Assembly (NCBI RefSeq): GCF_001509585.1
Contig: NZ_LNCI01000004.1
Location: forward strand, 62,001-126,000
Length of the DNA: 64,000 nt
Direction: 5' to 3'
DNA from: Tropicimonas marinistellae
GTDB taxonomy: Bacteria > Pseudomonadota > Alphaproteobacteria > Rhodobacterales > Rhodobacteraceae
The translations under genes and the position numbers were made by a program. This document shows, piece after piece, positions 31,773 to 45,560 of the stretch (the stretch's first letter is position 1; every line of letters begins with the position of its first letter). The notes under the pieces are model-generated. The model searched no databases and was not told the origin of the DNA. It saw only the letters and a program-made list of their open reading frames with translations.

Positions 31773-33101
31773 TCATTCATCGCCTGGATAGGGGAAGTCC
31801 CGACCAAGCGCTTCGGAGGCTTCCTCGTAGATCGGGCGCAACACGTCGTCGACGTCCCAATATCCGGACTTGGTGAAGTCTGAATACTGCATGGCGTCAA
31901 TCGGCACTCCGGACTCCTCAGAATACGCAGTTCGATCTTCGTTTTTCGGAGCCTCAGCAGGCGCGGCTGCTGGCGGGGCCCACGTACGCTCCTCGGTGAC
32001 TGCCATGCGAACCGTGATCTCATCCTTCGTGACATTCCAGACCATGAAATCGTCCGCCATACTCAGCGGTCCGTCATAGGTTGACCGAATGCGCTCGTAA
32101 ACGTTGGAGCTCGTGTCGAAGTCATTGAAGAAGTGATAGGCAACCGCGAGCCGTGGCTTCACTTCGCTCATGATCTTGCCGAACGCTTCCGGAGCCGTGT
32201 GAACCTGTGTCCCGACGAGCAATGCCGACTCCGGCGTGAACTTCATTTTTGCGACCAGGTCGGGAACTGCCACGAAGCACTCGTGGATCGCGATATCGGC
32301 GTCCTTGGCGTACTCGACGAACCACTTGTTCGGGTAGGAATCCGAGCTGAAGACGAACTTCAAACCGTTCCATTCCAGAGAGTAGCTAACCGGCCCGTCA
32401 AGCGAGTGGATTGCCGGAAACGAGCGAATGACGACCCCGTTGTCCTCGTATACGACTTGGTTTTCGCCGCGGTAATCGAACTCGTTGATTTCCATCTTGA
32501 AGCCACGAAAATCGATAAGTCCGGCACGGCCGGAAAGATCCCACGTCAGCATTTCCTGCATGCGCTCGAGTGCATAAGCGGTCCCCAGTTCTTCGACCGG
32601 ACCGCTAGGGCCCCAGACACGCAGCGGCACGTTACGGCCCATCAAGCCGCCGCCAATGAAAAGATCATGTAGTGCGCCGAAATGGTCGGTATGCAGGTGC
32701 CCGATGAATACCTTGTCGAGATAATTGTAAGGGATCTGGAGCGAGGAGATCCGCTCGGCCGAGCCAGAGCCAATGTCGAACAGGAACTTGTCGCCATTGC
32801 CGAGCTCCACAAGGAAGCAGGCCGCGGCCTGCGCGGCCCGAGTCGTCGGCATACCTGTCCCGCAGGCAATCACCCGCATCTCGTCGGCGGCGAGGTCTTC
32901 GGTGTTCGGGAAGTAGGCATCGCGCGGCCGGTCCCGGACCATCGTCGGCGAGACCTCGGCCTCCTGGGCCCAGGCCGCCCCCGCCAGGACCGCACCGTCA
33001 CCGTCGCTTGTACCCGACCCCCAAATGACCGCCCACGTACAGAGCGATACCCCAGCCAGGCAACCTGCCGTGAGCCGTGCGGCCGTTTTCCGTCGAAACA
33101 T
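31773..33101 (-). CDS. Secreted metallo-beta-lactamase-fold hydrolase
   Basis: A 442-residue protein from ATG 33101 after GGGAGGGG. The signal peptide ends AAWA-Q. The metal motif is HLHTDHFGAL, the first strand is MRVIACGTGMPTTRAAQAAA, later ligands are likely in FSSDSYP and CFVAVPD, and there is an acidic C-terminal extension. It resembles MBL-fold proteins annotated as GntH-like or as MBL arylsulfatases (AtsA type). Either way it is a periplasmic zinc hydrolase of unknown substrate. It is divergent from a TetR gene and leads a three-gene operon. Sharing an operator type with the sulfatase locus makes an ester/sulfate substrate attractive but unproven. Confidence 0.82.
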   Translation of the reverse strand: MFRRKTAARLTAGCLAGVSLCTWAVIWGSGTSDGDGAVLAGAAWAQEAEVSPTMVRDRPRDAYFPNTEDLAADEMRVIACGTGMPTTRAAQAAACFLVELGNGDKFLFDIGSGSAERISSLQIPYNYLDKVFIGHLHTDHFGALHDLFIGGGLMGRNVPLRVWGPSGPVEELGTAYALERMQEMLTWDLSGRAGLIDFRGFKMEINEFDYRGENQVVYEDNGVVIRSFPAIHSLDGPVSYSLEWNGLKFVFSSDSYPNKWFVEYAKDADIAIHECFVAVPDLVAKMKFTPESALLVGTQVHTAPEAFGKIMSEVKPRLAVAYHFFNDFDTSSNVYERIRSTYDGPLSMADDFMVWNVTKDEITVRMAVTEERTWAPPAAAPAEAPKNEDRTAYSEESGVPIDAMQYSDFTKSGYWDVDDVLRPIYEEASEALGRDFPYPGDE

Positions 33102-33144
33102 CTTGTCCCCTCCCTGAACGGATTCCATGAACCTCACACCGGCA

Positions 33145-33170
33145 ACATACGTTATCGTATGTAGCATACT
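33145..33170 (+). promoter_or_regulatory. TetR operator and promoter in the MBL/TetR intergenic region
   Basis: ACATACGTTATCGTATGT (33145-33162) is a perfect inverted repeat with 7-bp arms and a TTAT spacer. CATACT at 33165-33170 fits a -10 for the TetR gene. The core ATACGTTATCGTA corresponds to ATACGCTACCGTA before the sulfatases. It is the likely binding site of the adjacent TetR protein for both divergent promoters. Confidence 0.65.
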
Positions 33171-33226
33171 TTTTGGTATTGATCTACCGTGTCCATGCAC
33201 GACCGAAGGCGCAGGGAGGTTTGTTC

Positions 33227-34026: not shown

Positions 34027-34815
34027 CTACCAGCAGCAGAACCCGCCATCGACCAGGAGGTCGACACCCGTGCAATAGGAGGAGGCATCGCTTGCCAGGA
34101 AGACCGCGGGCCCGACCATCTCGTCGACGCTCGCCATCCGCTGCATCGGTGTCTGGCTCTCAAATTCCTTGGTCTGGTGCACCATCTCGGGCCGCGTGTT
34201 CATCGGCGTCGCCGTGTAGCCCGGGCTGATCGAGTTCACCCGGATGCCCCGCTCCACCCATTCCATCGCCATGCTCTTGGACATGTGGATGACCCCGGCC
34301 TTGGACGCGTTGTAATGGACCTGCATCAACCCGCGGTTCACGATCACCCCCGACATCGAGGCGATATTGATGATCGACCCCTTGCCGTGCCGGAGCATCG
34401 CTTCGGCCTCGGCCTGACACGAGAAGAAGACACCCTTCATGTTGATGTCCATAAGGGTCTGGTACTGCGCCTCTTCCATCTCCTCGGCGGGGTTGGCATT
34501 CGCGATGCCAGCCGAATTCACGGCAATCCCCAGCGCGCCCAGTTCGGCTTCGGTCTTCGCAACCGCATCCACCAGCGCGGCCTTGTCGGTGACATCGGCG
34601 GTCAGGGTCAGGGCCTTGCGCCCGGCGGCCTCGATGAAGCCGGCGGTATCGGCAAGGCCGCCATCCTCGCGGCGGTCGAGGCAGGCAATGTCGGCGCCGC
34701 ATTGCGCCAGCCCGACGGCAATGCGCTGCCCGATGCCGCTCCCTGCCCCGGTAACAAGCGCCACCCGCCCGGAAAGATCAAAGAGCGCCGGTGCATTCAG
34801 AGTGAGTTCCGCCAT
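34027..34815 (-). CDS. Short-chain dehydrogenase of the sugar/polyol island
   Basis: A 262-residue SDR from ATG 34815 (SD AGAGGA). The cofactor motif is TGAGSGIGQRIA. An Asp after the second strand (CLDRRED) favours NAD. Then come NSAGIANANPAEE and a catalytic Tyr-Lys in YNASKAGVIHM. It is the last gene of the minus-strand transporter operon (permease, binding protein, ATPase fusion, SDR), 61 bp after the ATPase fusion. It probably oxidises the imported polyol or sugar to a ketose; the substrate is unknown. Confidence 0.9.
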   Translation of the reverse strand: MAELTLNAPALFDLSGRVALVTGAGSGIGQRIAVGLAQCGADIACLDRREDGGLADTAGFIEAAGRKALTLTADVTDKAALVDAVAKTEAELGALGIAVNSAGIANANPAEEMEEAQYQTLMDINMKGVFFSCQAEAEAMLRHGKGSIINIASMSGVIVNRGLMQVHYNASKAGVIHMSKSMAMEWVERGIRVNSISPGYTATPMNTRPEMVHQTKEFESQTPMQRMASVDEMVGPAVFLASDASSYCTGVDLLVDGGFCCW

Positions 34816-34876
34816 TTTCTTGTCCTCTTGCGTTGCTTGCAATCTTGCGCGTCGTCGGTTCGGCCCGCTTTCGGCG

Positions 34877-37339
34877 TCACGCCGACGCCGCCCGCTCCCG
34901 CGTCTCGGGCGACGGGCGCCCCGGTTGGCGATCGCCGCGTTTCGTCTCCCACCAGTCGGCGAGCCGCTCGCGGGTGAGTAGCTGCGATCCGGTCAGGTGC
35001 TCCTTCGGAATGGTGTGGTTCTGCTTCATCGCGACGAGGTTCTTCACCGCCCAGTAGCCGATCTCCCACTGACGCTGCGCCTTGACGCCGGCAATGACAC
35101 CGGTCTCGATGAATTTCAGCGTCTCCTGCAGGTCATCCATGCCAACGATGGCAACCGCCCCCGACTTGCCCGCATCGACGACCGCGCGTGCCGCGCCAAT
35201 CGGGTTGGAGGCGTTGCAGGCGAAGATCCCCGCGAGATCGGGATGTGCCGCGAGCGCAGACTCGGTCAGGCGAACGGCGGTTTCGAGATTGTCGTTGTCG
35301 GGCTCCTCGAACACGATCTCCATCTCCGGGTAGGTTGCCACCGCGTCCTTGAACCCGGCGATGCGCGCCCTGTGGTTCGTGGCCGTCGGACTGCCCGCAA
35401 GGATGGCAACCTTGCCGGACCGGCCGAGCCTGTCGGCAAGGAAATGGCCGAGATCCGCGCCGTCCTGGTGATCGGCCTTGTTGCCCACGAAGGTGAAGTC
35501 CTCCGAACAGAAGGTGTCGAAGGTAATGACGTTGATACCGGCCTCCACCGCCTGCGCGATGAGCGGCGTCTCCGTGGCAGGATCGAGACAGGCCACGGCG
35601 AGCCCGTCCGGCTTGCGCTCGATGCTGGCCGCGATCCGGCGGCTGTGGTCGCCGACCTCGGCCTTCGGCGGCGCGTCCCACGTCACCCGGATGTCGATAC
35701 CATCGTCCTTCAGTTCGTCGACGGCCTTCTGCGCGCCCGCCGCCACGACGTCGTACCAGGGATGCACCACCTTTGGGATGAAGACGAGATCGAGCTTCTG
35801 CGCCACCGGGGTCAGCAGGTCCTCCTGGTCGAAGGACCGGGCATGTCCGGCCGTCGCCAGTTCCATGACATAGACGTCATTCGCCTCGCTCCGGTCGAGG
35901 ATGCCGGTCTGCCGGCCGCTCGACATGACCATGATGCGGTTGGAAACGCCAAGCACCTCGTCGAGGTCGGAACTTACGACGATGACCGCGACACCGGTTT
36001 CCGCGAGGCCGACGATGATGTCGTAGATCGAGGAGCGGGCGCCGACGTCGATACCGCGCGTCGGTTCGTCCAGCAGCACGACCTTCGGGTTCCGCGTCAA
36101 CCACTTGGCAATCACGACCTTCTGCTGGTTGCCGCCCGACATCTCGCTGGCACGCTGGTGGCCCTGGCCTTTGACACCGAATTTGCGGATGCTCTGGTCC
36201 GAGAATTCCGCCAGCTTGCTGCGGTTTATCCAGCCGGCCTTGCCGATGGACTCGAAATTCGCGTAGGCGATGTTTTCGCTGATGGTATGGTCGAGGATCA
36301 CGCCCTGAAGCTTGCGGTCCTCCGGCACCAGCACGATGCCCCGGTCTATCGCATCTCGCGGGCTGCGCGGGGTGATATCCTCGTCATTCAGCAGGACCTG
36401 CCCTTCCGCGATCGGGTCCGCCCCTGCGATCGCCCGCACGAGTTCGGTCCGGCCGGCGCCCACAAGGCCCGCGATACCGAAAATCTCGCCCTTCCGGACA
36501 CCGAAGTTGACGTCTGCGAAGGTCCCGTTGGGCGACGAGAGACCCCGCACCTCCAGAACGGTTTCCTCCTGTGGCGTGGGGACATCGGGGAACATGCGCC
36601 CGAGGCTGCGGCCCACCATCGCCTCCACGATGGTCCGGACGGGGATGTCGGCGGTGTCGAATTCCTTGACCTTCGCGCCGTCCCGGAAAACCACGATACG
36701 GTCGGCGATCTGTTTGATCTCCTCGAGCCGGTGCGAAATGTAGATGATCCCGACGCCCTCGGACTTGAGCTTTTCGATCTGCTTGAACAGGAGCTTGGTC
36801 TCCGCGCCGCCGAGCGCGGCGGTCGGCTCGTCCAGGATCAGCAGCTTTGCATTCAGCGTCAGCGCCTTTGCGATCTCGATCAGCTGTTGATTTGCGGTCG
36901 ACAGGCCTTTCACGAGGCGGCGCGGCGAGATGTCGAGACCAAGGCGCTCCAGCCCCTGGTAGGCACGCCGGTCCATTTCCTTCCGGTTGAGCCTGCCGCC
37001 GGTCATCGGGTACCTGCCGACGAAAATGTTCTCCGCCACGGTCAGGTGCGGCAACAGCATGAGTTCCTGATGGATCATCGCGACGCCGGAATCGATCGAC
37101 TCGCGGGGGTTGGCGGGCGCGTAGTCCGCGCCCTGCCATGTCATCTCTCCGGCGGTCGGGAGGATGGTGCCGGAGATGATGTTCGAAACGGTCGACTTGC
37201 CGGCACCGTTCTCGCCAAGGAGCGCCACGACTTCTCCGGCATAGATATCCAGGTCGATGTCGTGCAGCACTTCAATCGGCCCGTAGGACTTCTTGATGTT
37301 CCGCAGTGACAGGATCGGAGATTTGCCTTCGGTCGTCAT
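34877..37339 (-). CDS. Double ABC ATPase fused to a sugar-binding-protein domain
   Basis: 820 residues. Residues 1-498 are a complete RbsA-like ATPase: Walker A GENGAGKST (42-50), Walker B LLILDEPTAAL, then a second cassette with the degenerate GLVGAGRTE, signature MSGGNQQ and LLDEPTRGID. Residues about 515-790 are a type I periplasmic-binding-protein domain (VFIPKVVHPWYDVVAAGAQK; GINVITFDTFC; GIFACNASNPIGAARA; VAIVGMDDLQETLKF; GVKAQRQWEIGYWAVKN). The usual RbsA length is about 500. No signal peptide or membrane helix separates the parts, so the sugar-binding domain should face the cytoplasm. A separate secreted binding protein is encoded next door. Start ATG 37339 has AAGGGAA upstream. Confidence 0.9.
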   Translation of the reverse strand: MTTEGKSPILSLRNIKKSYGPIEVLHDIDLDIYAGEVVALLGENGAGKSTVSNIISGTILPTAGEMTWQGADYAPANPRESIDSGVAMIHQELMLLPHLTVAENIFVGRYPMTGGRLNRKEMDRRAYQGLERLGLDISPRRLVKGLSTANQQLIEIAKALTLNAKLLILDEPTAALGGAETKLLFKQIEKLKSEGVGIIYISHRLEEIKQIADRIVVFRDGAKVKEFDTADIPVRTIVEAMVGRSLGRMFPDVPTPQEETVLEVRGLSSPNGTFADVNFGVRKGEIFGIAGLVGAGRTELVRAIAGADPIAEGQVLLNDEDITPRSPRDAIDRGIVLVPEDRKLQGVILDHTISENIAYANFESIGKAGWINRSKLAEFSDQSIRKFGVKGQGHQRASEMSGGNQQKVVIAKWLTRNPKVVLLDEPTRGIDVGARSSIYDIIVGLAETGVAVIVVSSDLDEVLGVSNRIMVMSSGRQTGILDRSEANDVYVMELATAGHARSFDQEDLLTPVAQKLDLVFIPKVVHPWYDVVAAGAQKAVDELKDDGIDIRVTWDAPPKAEVGDHSRRIAASIERKPDGLAVACLDPATETPLIAQAVEAGINVITFDTFCSEDFTFVGNKADHQDGADLGHFLADRLGRSGKVAILAGSPTATNHRARIAGFKDAVATYPEMEIVFEEPDNDNLETAVRLTESALAAHPDLAGIFACNASNPIGAARAVVDAGKSGAVAIVGMDDLQETLKFIETGVIAGVKAQRQWEIGYWAVKNLVAMKQNHTIPKEHLTGSQLLTRERLADWWETKRGDRQPGRPSPETRERAASA

Positions 37340-37378: not shown

Positions 37379-38314
37379 TTACGGGTGCTGCTCGACGTAT
37401 TGCGGTGCGTCTTCGCAGGTGGTGAGAACCGCGTTCGGGGTCTGACGCTCCGGCACGCTTTCGCCAGCGGCAACCTTGATCGCGGAATCCACGGCAAGGC
37501 GGCCCATCAGCTGGGTGCTCTGGGTCGCTGTCACGACGAAGGGACCCTCGCATTCCGCCAGGTACTCGAGCGCCGCGACGTCGCCGTCATAGCCGCCGAT
37601 GATGACCTGATCGGAAAGACCGGCAACGTCGGTCGCCTTGGCCGCCCCCATGGCAAGCCCGTCGGCCTGGCCGAAGATGATCTTCAGGTCGGGATGCGCC
37701 TGCAGCATGTTCTGGGCAATCGAGAAACCCTCGTCCGGCGACCACATCTGGCTCCATTGCTGGGTGACCAGCTCCACGCCGGGATTCTCGTTGATGGCGC
37801 GTTCGCAGCCCTGGAAGCGAAGAACCTCGGGGGTGGTGCCCTTCTGGCCGTGGATGATGGCCATCTTGCCCTCGCCACCGGCCAGCTTGATGATGTGGTC
37901 GCAGACCTGGTAGGCGGATTCGATGCTCTCACCGGCGATGAACGTATCGCCCGGCTCGCCTTCGGGGAAGCGGTCCACGTTGATGACCGGGATCCCTTCG
38001 GCGCGCGCCAGGCGCGTCGGGACCGCGGCCGCCGCGGCACCGGCAGGGATGTAGATGAACGCGTCGATGCCCTGGGTCATGAAGTCCTGAACCTGACTCA
38101 CTTGGGTCGCGGTGTCGTTCTTGGCATCTGCCACGATGACCTCGATCCCCAGCTCCTTGCCGTAGTTTTCGACACCCAGCTTGATCTGGTTGAAAAAGTC
38201 CGCCTGCAGGTTCGGAACGGCGAGACCGATCTTCTTCACCTCGTCGGCGCCGGCAACTCCGGCAATCGAGGCAACCGCTGTCGCAGCGATCAGGGCCTTG
38301 AACGTCGTTTTCAT
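37379..38314 (-). CDS. Sugar ABC transporter substrate-binding protein
   Basis: A 311-residue periplasmic sugar-binding protein from ATG 38314 (SD GGAGGAG). The signal peptide ends GVAGA-D. Family stretches are NLQADFFNQIKLGVENYG, DFMTQGIDAFIYIPAGAAAA, VINVDRFPEG, FGQADGLAMGAAKA and GGYDGDVAALEYL. It delivers ligand to the permease encoded upstream and the ATPase fusion downstream. It is only loosely similar to the domain fused to the ATPase, so that domain does not look like a recent copy of this gene. Confidence 0.92.
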   Translation of the reverse strand: MKTTFKALIAATAVASIAGVAGADEVKKIGLAVPNLQADFFNQIKLGVENYGKELGIEVIVADAKNDTATQVSQVQDFMTQGIDAFIYIPAGAAAAAVPTRLARAEGIPVINVDRFPEGEPGDTFIAGESIESAYQVCDHIIKLAGGEGKMAIIHGQKGTTPEVLRFQGCERAINENPGVELVTQQWSQMWSPDEGFSIAQNMLQAHPDLKIIFGQADGLAMGAAKATDVAGLSDQVIIGGYDGDVAALEYLAECEGPFVVTATQSTQLMGRLAVDSAIKVAAGESVPERQTPNAVLTTCEDAPQYVEQHP

Positions 38315-38431
38315 GAGTAACTCCTCCACATTGGAATGGTCCGCTCTCTCAGCTTGGACCCGTTGAAGCCCGACAGTGCGGACCGGTCAGCGGGAGAAGC
38401 GGACCTCGGCCGCTCCCCCGAATTCGTCTCC

Positions 38432-39406
38432 CTATCTGCGCTTGAAGGTCTCGGCGGCGACGGCCAGCACGATAACCAGACCGATGATGACGGCCTGCAG
38501 GAAGGGAGAGACGCTCAGCAGGTTCAGGCCGTTGCGCAACACGCCGATGATCAGAACCCCGATGATCGTGCCGACAACGCCGCCGGTACCGCCCGACAAG
38601 CTCGTGCCGCCGATGACGACCGCGGCGATGGCATCGAGCTCATAGGCCACACCGGAACTGGGCTGGACCGAGTCGAGGCGCGCCGCGAGCAGGATGCCGG
38701 CAAGGCCGGACAGGAACGCCGAGGCCACGTAGACCAGAACTGTCGTGCGATTCACGTTGATCCCCGCGAGCCGCGCCACTTCCGGGTTTCCGCCGATGGC
38801 GTAGAGCGACCGGCCGCCCTCCCGGTAGCGCAGGAACACGAAGGCGAGCACGAACACGACCAGCATGACGGCCACGGTCATCGTCAGGACACCGCCGTAG
38901 CGAATGATGGCCGACATGTTGAACCAGGCCGGAAAGCCGATGATCTGCGAGCCGTTGGTGATCATGTTGGCAAGGCCACGCGCGATCGACATCATCGCGA
39001 GCGTCGCGATGAATGGGGGCACACCGAATGTCGTGATCATCATGCCGGAGGCCCCGCCGCAGATGGCGGCCGCTGCCAGCGCGCCGGTAATCGCGATGCT
39101 CATCGGCATTCCGGCTTCGACGTTCAGATAGCCGAGCACCATCATCGCCAGCGCAAGCACGGAGCCGACCGACAGGTCGATGCCCGCAATCAGGATCACG
39201 AAGGTCATCCCGACCGCCATGATCCCGAGCACGGTGATCTGATCCATGATGTTCAGGAAGTTCCGGAACGACATGAACGAGTCGGACGCGAATGTCAGAA
39301 ACGCGCAGAGGAGCAGCAGACCGATCAACGGCCCCGTCGCTCCGCTCAAGGAAAACAAGCTCGCGACAGAAGGTTTCACCGAGCCGTCTTTGGCGATCGA
39401 AGTCAT
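38432..39406 (-). CDS. Sugar ABC transporter permease
   Basis: A 324-residue RbsC-type permease from ATG 39406 (SD GGGAGGA). It has eight to ten membrane helices with the conserved LIAGIDLSVGSVLALAMM, TFGVPPFIATLAMMSIARG and GGTSLSGGTGGVVGT. It is the first gene of the minus-strand transport operon, an unusual order since the binding protein normally comes first. Divergent from the transketolase operon, with 211 bp of AT-rich control region between. Confidence 0.92.
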   Translation of the reverse strand: MTSIAKDGSVKPSVASLFSLSGATGPLIGLLLLCAFLTFASDSFMSFRNFLNIMDQITVLGIMAVGMTFVILIAGIDLSVGSVLALAMMVLGYLNVEAGMPMSIAITGALAAAAICGGASGMMITTFGVPPFIATLAMMSIARGLANMITNGSQIIGFPAWFNMSAIIRYGGVLTMTVAVMLVVFVLAFVFLRYREGGRSLYAIGGNPEVARLAGINVNRTTVLVYVASAFLSGLAGILLAARLDSVQPSSGVAYELDAIAAVVIGGTSLSGGTGGVVGTIIGVLIIGVLRNGLNLLSVSPFLQAVIIGLVIVLAVAAETFKRR

Positions 39407-39421
39407 GATTCCTCCCAAACC

Positions 39422-39448
39422 TTGCATATATATACAGAGCTGATGCAA
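39422..39448. promoter_or_regulatory. Inverted repeat TTGCAT-N15-ATGCAA before the permease gene
   Basis: Perfect 6-bp arms (39422-39427 and 39443-39448) flank an alternating TATATATA stretch, 16 bp upstream of the permease start codon. Position and symmetry suggest a repressor site over the transporter promoter. The regulator is unknown, but the SorC-type protein at 42927 is the only regulator in the island. Confidence 0.4.
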
Positions 39449-39536
39449 CATTCGTATCCGGAGGCGACCGGGCAGTCAAACCCTTTCTACTTCGTTTCAT
39501 CTTTTTTACATGCTCTCTATATCTGACGCGCGCACA

Positions 39537-39617: not shown

Positions 39618-40439
39618 ATGACTACCGAAGACCTTCGGCGTATGGCGAACAGGATTCGCCGCCGCGATCTCCAGGCCGTCTTCGAAGCAGGCGCAGGCCA
39701 TATCGGTGGCGAAATGTCTGTAACCGATATCCTTACGGCGCTGTATTTCCGAATCCTCAACGTCGATCCCGCAAATCCGCTCGATCCCGAGCGCGACCGT
39801 TTCGTCCTCAGCAAGGGCCATACGGCCTGTGCGCTCTACGTCACGCTGGCCGAGAAGGGCTTCATCCCGAAGGAGGAGGTCGCCACGTTTCTCAAGCCCC
39901 ATTCGCGCCTGAACGGCCACCCGAATCGCACCAAGGTCCCCGGGGTGGAGACGAATACGGGTCCGCTCGGCCACGGGCTCCCGGTGGCGGTGGGCATGGC
40001 GATATCGGCGAAATTGAGCGGCGCCGCCTGGCGCACCTTCGTCGTGACCGGCGATGGGGAAATGCAGGAGGGGAGCAACTGGGAGGCGTTGTCATCCGCC
40101 GCCCAATACAAGCTCGACAACCTGACGCTGATCATCGACCACAATCGCCTGCAGCAGGGCGCGCGGCTGGCCGACACGAACAACCTCGCCCCCTTCGCGC
40201 CAAAGCTCGAAGCCTTCGGTTGGGCCGTCCGGGAGATCGACGGTCACGACATGGACCAGATCGTCGCCGCCCTCTCACCCGACAGCGTGACGCCCGGAAA
40301 GCCCAACGCGATCGTGGCGCATACCAACAAGGGCCACGGGATTTCATTCATGTCCGACAACGTCGCCTGGCACCACAAGGTGCCGAACGCCGAGCAATAC
40401 AAACAGGCCATGGCCGAGCTTGAGGAGGCTGTCCAATGA
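39618..40439 (+). CDS. Transketolase-like enzyme, N-terminal (ThDP-binding) subunit
   Basis: 273 residues covering the pyrophosphate half of transketolase. It has AGAGHIGGEMSVTDILTALY, SKGHTACALY, GPLGHGLPVAVGMA and the ThDP motif that starts GDGEMQEG and ends about 30 residues later in DHN. In such split enzymes this subunit binds Mg-ThDP and pairs with the C-terminal subunit encoded by the next gene, which overlaps by 4 bp (ATGA). It should cleave or transfer a two-carbon ketol unit from a ketose phosphate. Comparable split transketolases act on apulose-4-phosphate or sulfofructose in known pathways. Confidence 0.9.
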   Translation: MTTEDLRRMANRIRRRDLQAVFEAGAGHIGGEMSVTDILTALYFRILNVDPANPLDPERDRFVLSKGHTACALYVTLAEKGFIPKEEVATFLKPHSRLNGHPNRTKVPGVETNTGPLGHGLPVAVGMAISAKLSGAAWRTFVVTGDGEMQEGSNWEALSSAAQYKLDNLTLIIDHNRLQQGARLADTNNLAPFAPKLEAFGWAVREIDGHDMDQIVAALSPDSVTPGKPNAIVAHTNKGHGISFMSDNVAWHHKVPNAEQYKQAMAELEEAVQ

Positions 40440-41395
40440 ACGCCGTGACCAAAGAGCCGAAACTCTACGATTGCCGCGACGCCTTCACCGCAACGCTTGA
40501 GGCGATGGCCGCGGAGAACGGCGATATCGTCGCCGTCTGCAACGATTCCGTCGGCTCTTCCAAGCTCGCCGGTTTCCGCGACCGGTTCCCGGAGCGCCTG
40601 ATCAACGTCGGCATCGCCGAGCAGACGCTCGTCGGGGTTGGCGCGGGCCTCGCAAATGGCGGCAAGCTCCCCTTTGTCTGCGGCGCGGCCTGCTTCCTGA
40701 CCGGCCGGGCGCTGGAGCAGATCAAGGCCGATGTCGCCTATTCCGACACCAATGTGAAGCTCGTCGGAATCAGCTCCGGAATGGCCTATGGCGAGCTTGG
40801 CCCGACACACCATTCGACCGAGGATTTCGCCTGGGTCCGGGCGATTCCCAACGTCGCCGTCGTGGCGCCCTGCGACAATGTCGAGACCGCCGCCGCCGTC
40901 GCCTTCGCCGCCGAGTACACGGGGCCGATCTTCCTGCGGCTGAGCCGCGTCGGCGTGCCGCAACTGCTGCCCGACGACCACAGGTTCGAGCTCGGCAAGG
41001 CCGTGACCCTACGCGACGGGACCGATGTCACGATCATTGCCAACGGCGTGCTGACCCATCGCGCGATGCTCGCGGCCGACAAACTTGCCGCGGCCGGTAT
41101 CGAAGCGCGCGTTCTCAACATGGCGACCGTCCGCCCGATCGACGAAGACGCGATCGTGAAGGCCGCCGAGGAAACCGGCGCCATCGTCACCTGCGAGGAA
41201 CACACGATCTTCGGCGGGCTCGGCAGCGCCGTGGCCGAAGTCGTGGTGGAAACGCGGCCGGCTCTGATGAAGCGCCTCGGCGTGCCCGGCATCTTCCCTC
41301 CGACCGGCAGCGCGAACTTCCTGCTGGACGAGTTCGGGATGTCCCCCGACGGCATCGCCGCGGCCGCCAGCGACCTGATCGAACGGAAAGCGTAG
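40436..41395 (+). CDS. Transketolase-like enzyme, C-terminal subunit
   Basis: A 319-residue pyrimidine-binding plus C-terminal transketolase part. It has RLINVGIAEQTLVGVGAGLA carrying the catalytic Glu, PFVCGAACFLTGRALEQIK, GPTHHSTEDFAWVRAIPN and a C-terminal regulatory fold (VTIIANGVLTHRAMLAADKL; HTIFGGLGSAVAEVV). Translation is coupled to the N-terminal subunit. Together they form one heteromeric transketolase. The donor is probably the product of the FGGY kinase that follows. Confidence 0.9.
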   Translation: MNAVTKEPKLYDCRDAFTATLEAMAAENGDIVAVCNDSVGSSKLAGFRDRFPERLINVGIAEQTLVGVGAGLANGGKLPFVCGAACFLTGRALEQIKADVAYSDTNVKLVGISSGMAYGELGPTHHSTEDFAWVRAIPNVAVVAPCDNVETAAAVAFAAEYTGPIFLRLSRVGVPQLLPDDHRFELGKAVTLRDGTDVTIIANGVLTHRAMLAADKLAAAGIEARVLNMATVRPIDEDAIVKAAEETGAIVTCEEHTIFGGLGSAVAEVVVETRPALMKRLGVPGIFPPTGSANFLLDEFGMSPDGIAAAASDLIERKA

Positions 41396-41404
41396 GAGCG
41401 CATC

Positions 41405-42877
41405 ATGAAACGGGCAGTTCTGGCCATCGACGAAGGCACGACGAACAGCAAGGCCATTCTGGTGCTCGAGTCGGGGGAAATCGTTGCGCGGGGGTCCTGC
41501 CCGGTCGAGACGAAACATCCGCAATCGGGCTGGGTGGAACAGGATGCCACGCAGGTCTGGACCAGCACCGTCACGGCGATCCGGGAATGCCTGGCCGCCG
41601 GACCGGAGGTCGAGATCGTCGCGATCGGCATTTCCAACCAGCGCGAATCGATCATGACCTGGGACAAGGCCACCGGCGCACCGCTCGGACCGCTCGTAAC
41701 CTGGCAATGCCGGCGGACCGCCGCCGCCTGCGAAGCGCTCAGAGCGGCCGGCAAGGAAGAGGACGTCATCGCCCGCACCGGCCTGCCGATCGATCCGCTG
41801 TTCCCCGCCACGAAGGTGGGATGGCTGCTCGAGAATCACTGTGCCGGCAAGGCACCGTCCGACATTTGCATCGGGACGGTCGATTCCTGGCTGATCTGGA
41901 ACTTCTCCGGCGGCACGGTTCATGCCTGCGACGCCTCCAACGCCGCGCGCACGCAACTCTACAACATCTCTGAGGGCCACTGGGACGAGACGCTCTGCGC
42001 GATCTTCGACGTTCCCATGGACGCGCTTGCCGAGGTGCACGATTCCTCCCACGTCTTCGCCCGCACATCGGGCGTGGACGGCCTCCCTGACGGGTTGCCG
42101 GTCGCCTCGGCGATCGGCGACTCGCACGGGGCGCTCTTCGGGCATGGCGCCTACGGGCTCGGCGACGGCAAGGTCACCTTCGGCACGGGGTCGTCCGTCA
42201 TGACGACACTGCCGGAGTTCATCATCCCCCCCAAGGGGGTCACCACGACAATCGCATGGCGGCTCGACGGCAAGCCGACCTACGCGTTCGAAGGCAATAT
42301 CCTCGTCAGCGCCTCGATCCTGCCGTGGACGGCCGACCTCCTCGGGCAGGCGGATGTCACGACGTTGCTCGACCTGGCGCAGACCGTGGACAGCACACTC
42401 GGCGTCATGCTGGTTCCGGCCCATGTCGGCCTCGGCTCGCCGCATTGGAACGCCGAGGCGCGCGGCCTGATCTGCGGGCTCTCCTTCAACACCGGCAGGG
42501 CGCATGTCGCCCGCGCCGCGGCGGAGAGCATGGCCTTCCAGGTCGCCGATGTCTTCGAGATCGTCGAGCAGAATACCGGCATGGGAATCGGCCGCCTCTT
42601 CGTCGATGGCGGCCCCAGCCGGAACCCGTTCCTGATGGGCATGGTCGCCGACTACATCGACCATCCGGTGATCGGCGGCGAGAGCACCGAAGCATCGGCG
42701 CTCGGTGCGGCCTACCTGGCGGGGCTGGCCACCGGCTTCTGGCCGGATCTGGAGACCATCGGATCGCTGCCCGAGCACAGCGCGGAAATCGCCCCGACGC
42801 TCGCGGCCACAGAGCGGCAGTCGGCGCGGGCCACATGGCGCGCGGCGGTGGACCGGGCGACTCTTGGCACCGAATAA
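41405..42877 (+). CDS. FGGY-family carbohydrate kinase (glycerol-kinase-like)
   Basis: A 490-residue FGGY kinase. The phosphate-1 loop is AIDEGTTNSKAILVL at residue 6 onward. Then come GISNQRESIMTWDKATG, VDSWLIWNFSGG, GDSHGALFGHGAYG, FGTGSSVMTTL and the C-terminal FVDGGPSRNPFLMGMVADYI. It is closest in look to glycerol kinase, but the island contains no glycerol facilitator or GlpD. A ketose or tetritol/pentitol-derived sugar is therefore more likely as substrate, with the phosphorylated product passed to the split transketolase. It starts 9 bp after the transketolase C subunit with TAGGAG. Confidence 0.88.
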   Translation: MKRAVLAIDEGTTNSKAILVLESGEIVARGSCPVETKHPQSGWVEQDATQVWTSTVTAIRECLAAGPEVEIVAIGISNQRESIMTWDKATGAPLGPLVTWQCRRTAAACEALRAAGKEEDVIARTGLPIDPLFPATKVGWLLENHCAGKAPSDICIGTVDSWLIWNFSGGTVHACDASNAARTQLYNISEGHWDETLCAIFDVPMDALAEVHDSSHVFARTSGVDGLPDGLPVASAIGDSHGALFGHGAYGLGDGKVTFGTGSSVMTTLPEFIIPPKGVTTTIAWRLDGKPTYAFEGNILVSASILPWTADLLGQADVTTLLDLAQTVDSTLGVMLVPAHVGLGSPHWNAEARGLICGLSFNTGRAHVARAAAESMAFQVADVFEIVEQNTGMGIGRLFVDGGPSRNPFLMGMVADYIDHPVIGGESTEASALGAAYLAGLATGFWPDLETIGSLPEHSAEIAPTLAATERQSARATWRAAVDRATLGTE

Positions 42878-42926: not shown

Positions 42927-43895
42927 GTGGCACGAGTCAACGAACTCAGACTGATCACGCGCGTGGCCCAGATGTATTACACGGAGGGGCGCAGGCAGGC
43001 GGAGATTGCCCGGCATCTCCGCATTTCCCAGGCCACGGTCTCGCGCATGCTCAAGAAGGCCCAGCAAGAAGAGATCGTGCGCACGACCATCGTCGCACCC
43101 ACAGGCACATTCCCGGAGCTGGAAACGGGGCTGCGCGAAACCTATGGCCTGCCGGAAGCGATCGTCGTGGAATGCGCCGAGGACAGCCCCGGCTCGATCA
43201 TGGCGCGGATCGGCGAGGCGGCCGCGCATTTCCTCGAAGCGACCCTGCAATCGGGCGAGATCATCGGCGTGTCGAGCTGGAGCGAGACCATCCTGAAGAT
43301 GGTCGACAACATCCACCCGATGCCCGCGGGCAAGGCGAAATACGTCGTCCAGACGCTTGGCGGCATGGGCGACCCGACCGTCCAGACGCACGCCACGCAG
43401 CTCACCACGCGGCTCGCGCGGCTGACCGGCGCCGAGCCGCGCCTGCTCTCCGCCCCCGGTGTCGCGCAATCGCGCGAGGCGAAGCTCGTGCTCCTCGGTG
43501 ACACTTATGTGCGCGAAACCATGGAGCTTTTCAGCAAGATCACGCTCTCCATCGTCGGCATCGGCGCGATCGAGCCATCCTCGATGCTGGCCCGCAGCGG
43601 CAACGTCTTCACGCCCAACGAGCTATCCGACCTCACCGATGCCGGGGCCATCGGCGACATGTGCCTGCGGTTCTTCGATCTGGACGGCAACATCGTGAAA
43701 ACCCCGCTCGACGACCGCGTGATCGGCATGCCGATGGAAGACCTGACCAACGTCGACCGGGTGATCGCGCTGGCCGGAGGCAAGGCCAAGACCGAATCCA
43801 TCCGCGGCGCCCTCCGGACCGGCACCGTGGACGTGCTGGTCACCGACGAATTCACCGCACGCCGACTATTGGAAGCGCGGACGACGATACCCTGA
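42927..43895 (+). CDS. SorC/DeoR-type sugar-binding transcriptional regulator
   Basis: A 322-residue protein. The helix-turn-helix near residues 22-45 is RRQAEIARHLRISQATVSRM, followed by the SorC effector domain. That domain is related to glucosamine-6-phosphate deaminase and has IIGVSSWSETILKMVD, YVVQTLGGMGDPTVQTHA, ALAGGKAKTESIRGALR and a C-terminal VDVLVTDEFTARRLLEA. The start is GTG with AAGGAG seven bases upstream. SorC proteins bind a sugar phosphate and usually act as tetramers on distant half-sites, in keeping with the inverted repeats at 39422 and 39537. It is embedded in the operon it probably controls. Confidence 0.92.
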   Translation: MARVNELRLITRVAQMYYTEGRRQAEIARHLRISQATVSRMLKKAQQEEIVRTTIVAPTGTFPELETGLRETYGLPEAIVVECAEDSPGSIMARIGEAAAHFLEATLQSGEIIGVSSWSETILKMVDNIHPMPAGKAKYVVQTLGGMGDPTVQTHATQLTTRLARLTGAEPRLLSAPGVAQSREAKLVLLGDTYVRETMELFSKITLSIVGIGAIEPSSMLARSGNVFTPNELSDLTDAGAIGDMCLRFFDLDGNIVKTPLDDRVIGMPMEDLTNVDRVIALAGGKAKTESIRGALRTGTVDVLVTDEFTARRLLEARTTIP

Positions 43896-43913: not shown

Positions 43914-44696
43914 ATGACAAGGTTCGAAGGCAAGACGGTTGTCGTAACGGGTGGCAACAAGGGCATCGGCTACGCGATCGCCGAACGTTTCGCGAGCGAA
44001 GGTGCGAATGTCGTCATTGCCTCCTACGAGGAGCAGGTCAACGAAGCCGCCGCCGACCTCGCCAAGGGCGGCGCCGCAACCCTCCCCGTGCTCTGCGACG
44101 TGACCGACCCCGCCCAGGTGGTCAGGCTCTACGACGCCGCCGAAGAGGCATTCGGAAGCATCGACATCTCGATCCAGAATGCCGGCGTGATCTACATCTC
44201 CAAACTCGAAGACGTGTCGCTCGAAGAATGGAACAAGACGCTCGCGGTCAATACGACGGGCTGTTTCCTGTGCTGCCAGGAAGCGATCAAGCGCATCCGC
44301 AAACACGACCGCGGCGGAAAGCTCGTCAACACCGCCTCGGGCCAGGCCCGCGAGGGCTTCATCTACACCCCGCATTACGCCGCCTCGAAATTCGGCGTGA
44401 TGGGACTGACGCAGAGTCTCGCCAAGGAAGTCGCGCTGGAGAAGATCACCGTCAACGCGATCTGCCCCGGCATCATCTACAGCGAGATGTGGGACTACAA
44501 CGACCGCGTCTGGGGCCAGATGCTGGGCGAGTACGGCCCTGGCGAACTGATGGCCGAATGGGTCCAGAACATCCCGATGAAACGCGCCGGCGTGGGCAAG
44601 GACGTGGCCGGGCTCGTCGCGTTCCTCGCCAGCGAGGACGCCGACTACATCACCGGCCAGACAGTGAATGTGGATGGTGGCCTGATCATGTCGTGA
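43914..44696 (+). CDS. Short-chain dehydrogenase (polyol/sugar dehydrogenase type)
   Basis: A 260-residue SDR. It has TGGNKGIGYAIAERF, the acidic turn replaced by YEEQVNEAA, NAGVIYISKLEDV, NTASGQAREGF, the catalytic YAASKFG, and PGIIYSEMWDYN with the long C-terminal loop common in sorbitol- and diacetyl-type reductases. It starts 18 bp after the SorC gene. With the other SDR of the island it gives two oxidation/reduction steps before or after the kinase-transketolase core. The substrate is not predictable. Confidence 0.9.
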   Translation: MTRFEGKTVVVTGGNKGIGYAIAERFASEGANVVIASYEEQVNEAAADLAKGGAATLPVLCDVTDPAQVVRLYDAAEEAFGSIDISIQNAGVIYISKLEDVSLEEWNKTLAVNTTGCFLCCQEAIKRIRKHDRGGKLVNTASGQAREGFIYTPHYAASKFGVMGLTQSLAKEVALEKITVNAICPGIIYSEMWDYNDRVWGQMLGEYGPGELMAEWVQNIPMKRAGVGKDVAGLVAFLASEDADYITGQTVNVDGGLIMS

Positions 44697-44768
44697 TCGC
44701 CGCCGCCGCGCCCCCCGGTCCCTGTGCCGTGGGGGCGCAAGGCGTCCATGCCGGATACGGAGTTTCCC

Positions 44769-45560
44769 ATGCTCACGCACATTGACCGGCTGTTGCGCCG
44801 CCGGACGGCGGAATCCGTGCTGCGCGAAGCGGGCCAGCATGCGCTGGAACGGTTCCGGTCGCATGCCTTCACCGTCCAGGAAAAGGGCATGCAGGATTTC
44901 GTGTCCGAGGTGGACCGCGAAACGGAGGCCTTCATTCGCGCGCGCCTCGCCGAGAGCTTCCCGTCAGACGGTTTCTTCGGCGAGGAACACGGCGGCGCCC
45001 CAACCGCCGCGACCTGGGTCGTGGACCCGATCGACGGAACCACGAACTTCGTCCGCAACATCCCCTTCTGGTGCCTCTCGGCCGGGTTCGTGGTCAACGG
45101 CCAGCCGGAAATCGGCGTCGTCTACGACCCCAATCTCGACGAGATGTTCGCCGCACACCGCGGTGGCGGCTGCTGGCTGAACGGAACGCCCATCTCGGTC
45201 TCGGACACCGACACGCCGGAAACCGCCGTCCTTGCCTTCGGTTTCAGCTTTCGCGCCCCCGCCGATCGCAATCCCCGGATCGTCTCGCATCTGCTGTCTG
45301 CTGGGGCGGTCTACCGGATGCAGGGCGCCGGCGCGCTTTCCATGGCGCATTGCGCCGCGGGCCGCGTGGACGGGTTCTTCGAAGCCCACATGATGCCCTG
45401 GGACGCCGCTGCCGGGCTCGCGCTCATCGTCGAGGCGGGCGGCCTGGTGTCCAGCTTCGGCGACAACGACGGATTCCGGACCGGCAATGTCGTTCTGGCC
45501 AGCACTCCCCCGATGGCCGGGTTCTTCTCCGCCGCGACCGGCGTCGCGCTGCCGCACTGA
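44769..45560 (+). CDS. Inositol-monophosphatase-family phosphatase
   Basis: A 263-residue IMPase-fold phosphatase. The metal sites are GFFGEEHGG, DPIDGTTNFV and the C-terminal WDAAAGLALIVEAGG. ATG 44769 is chosen for its GGAG six bases upstream; ATG 44748 (CAAGG) and GTG 44724 are possible longer starts. The family removes phosphate from inositol phosphates, fructose-1,6-bisphosphate or related sugar phosphates. In this island it may dephosphorylate a pathway intermediate or dead-end product. Last gene of the plus-strand operon. Confidence 0.85.
   Translation: MLTHIDRLLRRRTAESVLREAGQHALERFRSHAFTVQEKGMQDFVSEVDRETEAFIRARLAESFPSDGFFGEEHGGAPTAATWVVDPIDGTTNFVRNIPFWCLSAGFVVNGQPEIGVVYDPNLDEMFAAHRGGGCWLNGTPISVSDTDTPETAVLAFGFSFRAPADRNPRIVSHLLSAGAVYRMQGAGALSMAHCAAGRVDGFFEAHMMPWDAAAGLALIVEAGGLVSSFGDNDGFRTGNVVLASTPPMAGFFSAATGVALPH

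Follow-up and report, generated by a model that had tools for sequence, protein, structure and literature searches.

Importers of the ABC type with known feedback from inside the cell carry special tails on their ATPases, as described in the portion of the source used here (PMC10710835). According to the same portion, the C-terminal ATPase domains of MetN and ModC bind the internal substrate and stop transport, and in MetNI and ModABC the ligand lies between two paired domains, at their interface; these domains have folds other than the one considered below (PMC10710835).

The importer analyzed in this study is encoded in a stretch of 64,000 nucleotides (hereafter the window) of contig NZ_LNCI01000004.1 of Tropicimonas marinistellae. 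It resembles the CUT2 importers (RbsABC/AraFGH type) in its one-chain double ATPase, its BPD_transp_2 permease and its secreted Peripla_BP_4 protein. It differs from them in a second, signal-less binding-protein domain, which is located on the C-terminus of the ATPase.

The fused gene, its operon and its relatives

The initial annotation had described a double RbsA-type ATPase continuing in frame into a sugar-binding domain, and the present analysis bore this out. A single ORF with an ATG start codon encodes two ABC_tran stretches, that is, tandem nucleotide-binding domains in one chain, followed by a nearly full-length Peripla_BP_4 domain (profile positions 3-254 of 258, 172 bits; Pfam) (Table 1). 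The chain ends at residue 820, against the usual end at about 500 for ATPases of the CUT2/RbsA type. Residues 6-497 align to almost the whole of the AraG/RbsA-type models, under the equivalog cut-offs (NCBIfam). The extension past the ATPase was matched by binding-protein models only, with no match of the C2 or ModC type.

Table 1. Features of the fused gene and its neighbours, in window coordinates
Feature	Position	Strand	Description
Fused gene	34877..37339	(-)	double RbsA-type ATPase + sugar-binding-protein domain, 820 aa
ATPase part, residues 1-497	35849..37339	(-)	two nucleotide-binding domains; Walker A, signature, Walker B in both halves
Five joining residues 498-502 (GHARS)	35834..35848	(-)	link the ATPase end to the point that corresponds to the mature binding-protein start
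Binding-protein domain, residues 503-820	34880..35833	(-)	Pfam Peripla_BP_4 at 519-772; tail variable from about 800
Secreted sugar-binding protein of the importer	37379..38329	(-)	Peripla_BP_4, 171 bits; signal peptide by simple rule
Importer permease	38432..39451	(-)	BPD_transp_2, 144 bits
SDR1, short-chain dehydrogenase gene following the fused gene	34027..34842	(-)	family matches
Split transketolase, N- and C-terminal genes, divergent operon	39618..41395	(+)	Pfam
FGGY sugar kinase	41405..42877	(+)	family matches
SorC/DeoR-type sugar-binding regulator	42927..43895	(+)	family matches
SDR2, second short-chain dehydrogenase	43914..44696	(+)	Pfam

The same architecture was found in other genomes. 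In a domain-alignment scan of named genomes, the best 80 of 196 relatives were kept, resulting in 79 loci, and in five of these the domain and the ATPase lie in one open frame. These five, which have the best E-values of the 79, are from Tropicimonas sp. IMCC6043 (L012), T. isoalkanivorans (L013), a Paracoccaceae MAG (L014), T. sediminicola (L015) and Aliiruegeria lutimaris (L016), and their proteins are 90 to 71% identical to the window protein. Both ABC_tran and Peripla_BP_4 were matched in all six fused proteins. The joint ELAT[AS]G[HR][AS]R[AS][FY]DQ is present in every one of them, and the frame stays open through all six diverged sequences. The fusion is real. A stop or frameshift near residue 500, or an artefact of assembly, had been named at the outset as what might undo the observation; it is excluded by the five further records with the same in-frame joint and by the matches within the genus given below.

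The stretches that we take to be Walker A, the signature and Walker B are found in both ATPase halves, with small substitutions in some fused members. In L014 the first half has LDEAT after Walker B instead of the usual LDEPT.

The absence of a signal peptide and of a membrane helix between the two parts, also claimed initially, was confirmed. The highest 19-residue hydropathy window starting at residues 470-530 of the window protein is 1.11, and hydropathy showed no membrane-spanning stretch at the joint in any of the six fused proteins. By a simple rule, no signal peptide precedes the binding domain in the window protein. Five of the six fused proteins fail this rule; L014 passes it on conserved ATPase-end residues, and this pass is taken as a false call. 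No HTH model, as would be expected at the N-terminus of a LacI-type sensor, was matched at E<=0.001 in the six proteins. Since a normal secreted binding protein is also encoded in the operon, the fused domain has been added to it and does not replace it, as had been proposed.

The gene order permease, binding protein, ATPase-domain fusion, SDR is common to the window and the five fused relatives, the SDR gene being directly after the fused gene in each case. The neighbouring genes (two SDRs, an FGGY kinase, a split transketolase and a SorC regulator) suggest a polyol or an unusual pentose as the substrate. The literature on apiose or transketolase gave no usable lead on the substrate among the matches listed. 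Two further features of the window were recorded. A tRNA-Thr (anticodon CGT) was called by ARAGORN at 44982-45077 (-), antisense within an inositol-monophosphatase-like ORF (44724-45560), and is probably a false call. A metallo-beta-lactamase-fold protein at 31773-33200 (-) matches the anti-Pycsar model Apyc1 below the cut-off (24 versus 50 bits).

The spread of the fusion was examined at several levels. Within the genus, the ATPase was matched at E<=1e-180 in six of nine genomes, and five of the nine, the window's own included, match the fused protein over nearly its whole length. In one genome of the genus (G482) the match covers positions 1-501 only; the ATPase stops and an SDR follows. When 390 genomes of the order were searched with the domain alone, 12 had matches at E<=1e-40, and the best-scoring three of these are fused by open frame or by locus. 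A search for independent fusions in 398 genomes of the phylum, with two candidates scored per genome, gave matches in 54 at E<=1e-135, among which the window's own gene was the sole one to extend beyond position 518. Among 72,556 plasmid records, 1833 were matched at E<=1e-60, and in five a single place covers 80% of the query; 40 of the matched records were listed, and near records may be left out. All five places are given as two joined pieces, one of them (H17) being two genes with the binding protein before the ATPase. A second lineage with the fused architecture was not found in these searches of phylum, order and plasmid records. As far as the searches made can tell, the fusion is confined to a small group of bacteria. 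The view that the architecture had no earlier description stood as well: no account was found in the sequence records or, among the matches listed, in the titles and abstract starts of openly licensed PubMed Central papers.

Origin of the domain and history of the fused genes

Beyond the fused group, the domain is nearest to stand-alone binding proteins, with identities of 51-68%. A signal peptide was predicted by the simple rule in 54 of 55 stand-alone ORFs, three of which (L010, L011 and L093) appear to be duplicates of genes fetched twice; the remaining one, L066, is truncated at the end of its contig. In the five closest relatives (L017, L018, L019, L020 and L061) the mature chain starts with FDQG right behind the predicted signal peptide, and the fused domain starts with FDQ or YDQ immediately behind the joint. 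The position of the joint at the mature-chain start indicates that the mature domain was kept and the signal peptide dropped. By these comparisons, the domain derives from the secreted binding protein of a different importer.

The recipient side was analyzed in the same way. All five unfused ATPases examined (L017, L108, L112, L103 and L123) end at the residue equivalent to 497, and in close pairs with and without the domain the ATPases are 78% identical. In L123 and L108, SDR2 and SDR1 follow the ATPase in this order, and the same order follows the domain in L014-L016. The domain therefore looks inserted between the ATPase and the SDR.

The two parts of the fused gene gave different trees. 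The fused binding domains form one clade (100/99) inside a supported group with the five closest stand-alone relatives. For the ATPase parts, a tree grouping all six fused sequences was rejected (p-AU 0.006); the rejection was strongest for the N-terminal half (0.0035) and weak for the C-terminal half (0.045). An earlier ATPase tree, which included more distant rows, was for the most part unresolved. In a post hoc look at the last hundred columns, every fused row was nearest to another fused row. Because the two trees conflict, a single line of vertical descent for the gene as a whole is not supported. The results would fit a single fusion event after which the 3' end recombined or the domain was lost repeatedly, and it is unlikely that fusions arose independently at the same residue. 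The conflict, which sets L012-L016 against L123, L108 and L112, also suggests that the ATPase genes are mosaic.

The gene context of the stand-alone relatives bears on the importer from which the domain came. An ATPase and a permease of the same general kind were found in the fetched stretch of 49 of the 52 stand-alone loci. Homologues of the window's transketolase (TKN/TKC), FGGY, SorC or SDR1 genes are present in the flanks of 15 of these 52 loci against none of 22 controls, where the counts depend on author-set identity thresholds and coverage of at least 50%, the loci are related and not independent, and the controls are more distant binding proteins that are not taxonomy-matched. By this context, the ligand of the domain is probably a compound of the same pathway. 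A PfkB kinase is found instead in 27 of the 52 loci. In one locus (L017, 1420-9434) a permease, a binding protein, an ATPase and an SDR are followed by a binding protein, an ATPase and a permease, so that importers of the recipient and donor kinds adjoin. This is possibly the pre-fusion arrangement. Together with the link to the catabolic genes, the side-by-side layout suggests a single pathway supplied by the two importers.

Threshold-cut searches of the window's own genome gave no match of the donor ATPase at E<=1e-120, an empty result that alone proves nothing in a single genome, and 11 matches of the donor permease, all at 43% identity or less. With no close orthologues of either seen, the domain is probably present there without its old partner.

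Two observations on the wider loci may be mentioned here. Six loci from MAGs of Spirochaetes and Planctomycetes (L054, L057, L059, L062, L064 and L066) have a stand-alone relative near at least one transketolase half, and this deep link may reveal the substrate. On the plasmids L103, L104 and L105, ribB (3,4-dihydroxy-2-butanone-4-phosphate synthase) adjoins the unfused operon, which is a hint to the chemistry of the pathway. The hosts of these plasmids are Rhizobium sp. TH2, Agrobacterium and a record labelled Roseateles sp. XES5. The label of L104 (NZ_CP084754.1; Roseateles, UNVERIFIED_ORG) may be wrong, since the operon is of the rhizobial type.

Selection on the domain and its ligand pocket

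In the two closest pairs of fused genes, dN/dS of the domain (Nei-Gojobori) was 0.086 (window versus L012) and 0.073 (L015 versus L016), and that of the ATPase part was 0.061 and 0.070, respectively. In the fused pairs beyond these two, synonymous distances were near or above 1. Since the values are 0.06-0.09 in the closest pairs, it is unlikely that the domain is a pseudogene or a passenger in decay. As judged from these substitution rates, the fused domain is kept by strong purifying selection. In all 15 fused pairs the domain had a higher dN than the ATPase part, which counts against a role of the domain as a sensor.

Conservation of single positions was also compared. In 44 stand-alone proteins, conservation reaches at least 95% in 91 columns. 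Of these, 71 are kept in all six fused proteins, 19 are altered in some fused proteins and one (P738Q) in all. With 39 stand-alone proteins as the reference, 73 of 78 columns are kept in five sister stand-alone proteins and 62 of 78 in the six fused ones. The fused set is therefore freer than its sisters, and this fact, too, counts against a sensor.

At the 13 positions that we take to be equivalent to the pocket of E. coli RbsB, ten are invariant in the fused set, compared with 141 of 288 positions overall (p 0.036, a weak statistic). H526, W528, Y529, D608, R659, D683, D735 and Q755 are identical in the six fused proteins. Position 583 is A or S in the fused and stand-alone sets alike. Pocket position 709 is N in 43 of the 44 stand-alone proteins; among the six fused proteins it is N in two, D in three and T in one. 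Position 734 is M or W, with W in two of the six fused proteins and M in 37 of the 44 stand-alone ones. Columns 651, 680 and 685 vary within the fused set. The changes at 709, 734, 651, 680 and 685 suggest that the ligand may have changed or that its binding may have weakened. Overall, the ligand-pocket positions are mostly intact in the fused domain.

Possible functions and comparison with known systems

Of the interpretations considered, we favor the one in which the fused domain works as a sensor on the cytoplasmic side of the importer ATPase, probably for trans-inhibition, and we give it about an even chance. The mature part of the secreted binding protein of a second importer, probably one of the same catabolic pathway, was joined in frame to the C-terminus of the double ATPase. 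Since ATPases of the RbsA type are cytoplasmic, the joined domain should be so too; the initial annotation had expected it inside the cell, and the loss of the signal peptide agrees with this. The domain would retain its ligand pocket in the cytoplasm and serve as a sensor on the motor. On accumulation in the cell of the imported sugar, or of a compound formed early from it, the domain would close on its ligand, and the closure would alter the ATPase cycle, most simply resulting in slower import. We infer that the domain is located in the cytoplasm, that it binds a ligand, that this ligand is the imported compound or its product, and that the effect is inhibitory. Trans-inhibition and channelling, both raised in the initial annotation, are possibilities suggested by the position of the domain, the selection on it and the genome context. 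One chain here contains both ATPase halves and a single domain, unlike the paired domains of the described cases, and close unfused ATPase relatives manage without the domain; both facts count against the sensor. That the importer uses a recycled external binding protein on its motor to sense its cargo within the cell, and so represents a new class of trans-regulated importer, is proposed more tentatively, with somewhat less than an even chance.

It is worth noting that other interpretations are possible. The domain might be a cytoplasmic acceptor, which takes the sugar from the permease, holds or buffers it and passes it to the neighbouring SDR with no regulation of the ATPase; uptake would thereby be made less reversible. 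The SDR gene directly after the fused gene in all six loci, the largely kept pocket positions and the link between the donor family and similar catabolic genes would agree with this. Binding proteins usually bind their ligands tightly. The domain is, however, attached to the motor and to neither the permease nor the enzyme, a single site per transporter would give little buffering, and a tight hold on the ligand would slow its release. We regard this interpretation as unlikely. To a possible activating effect of the domain, or to sensing of a pathway product (a keto-sugar or a sugar phosphate) rather than the imported compound, we give no greater weight. The positions 651, 680, 685 and 709, which lie at the pocket or close to it and are altered in some of the fused proteins, are as expected for a changed ligand, whereas both importer cases described in the portion of the source used here are inhibitory (PMC10710835).

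It would also be conceivable that the domain has no ligand-dependent function and is a stabilizing element or a neutral passenger. The higher dN of the domain in all 15 pairs, the variable C-terminal tail and the existence of close unfused relatives are in favor of this interpretation. The strong purifying selection, the eight residues shared by the six proteins and the frame that is open in six diverged sequences are against it, and its probability seems low. Finally, the gene might give two products, by an internal start or by cleavage, and so a free cytoplasmic binding protein. An in-frame ATG, GTG or TTG lies between residues 471 and 540 in all six genes, but a Shine-Dalgarno-like stretch precedes just one such codon, in L015. 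A separate product from an internal start was rejected, since no ribosome-binding site is common to the fused genes, and we regard two products as highly improbable.

Should the sensor reading be correct, the same kind of domain would catch the sugar outside the cell and report on the sugar inside it. If a single in-frame joint can make a secreted binding protein sense ligand inside the cell, transporters would have a simple way to acquire regulation, and a natural design for sugar-responsive transporters would be at hand. The close pairs with and without the domain, already noted, allow direct tests.

The fused domain may be compared with several known systems. In regulators of the LacI family, the sugar-binding fold serves as a sensor inside the cell, as proposed here. 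The fused protein differs from them in that no DNA-binding domain was found, and the domain scores 172 bits with Peripla_BP_4 but 37 bits with Peripla_BP_1, which includes the LacI domain. OpuA and GlnPQ resemble the present importer in having a binding domain that is covalently part of the transporter. In importers of that type the fused binding domain sits on the permease and faces outward, whereas here it is located on the ATPase. The best-scoring solved relative of the domain is CbpD of Clostridium thermocellum (PDB ID: 7x0p), which, unlike the fused domain, is a stand-alone external protein. CbpD was solved without a ligand and, in the part of the report used here, showed no binding of the tested carbohydrates, contrary to an earlier study (PMC9601137). 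A likeness in arrangement is also seen with MetNI, which has a C2 domain, and ModABC; in both, an extra C-terminal domain of the ATPase is expected to face the cytoplasm and to see the internal substrate, as far as the source portion describes them (PMC10710835). The present importer, which is known from sequence, differs from both in that the extra domain has the fold of a binding protein and not that of C2 or ModC, and in that one domain, not a pair, is present per double ATPase.
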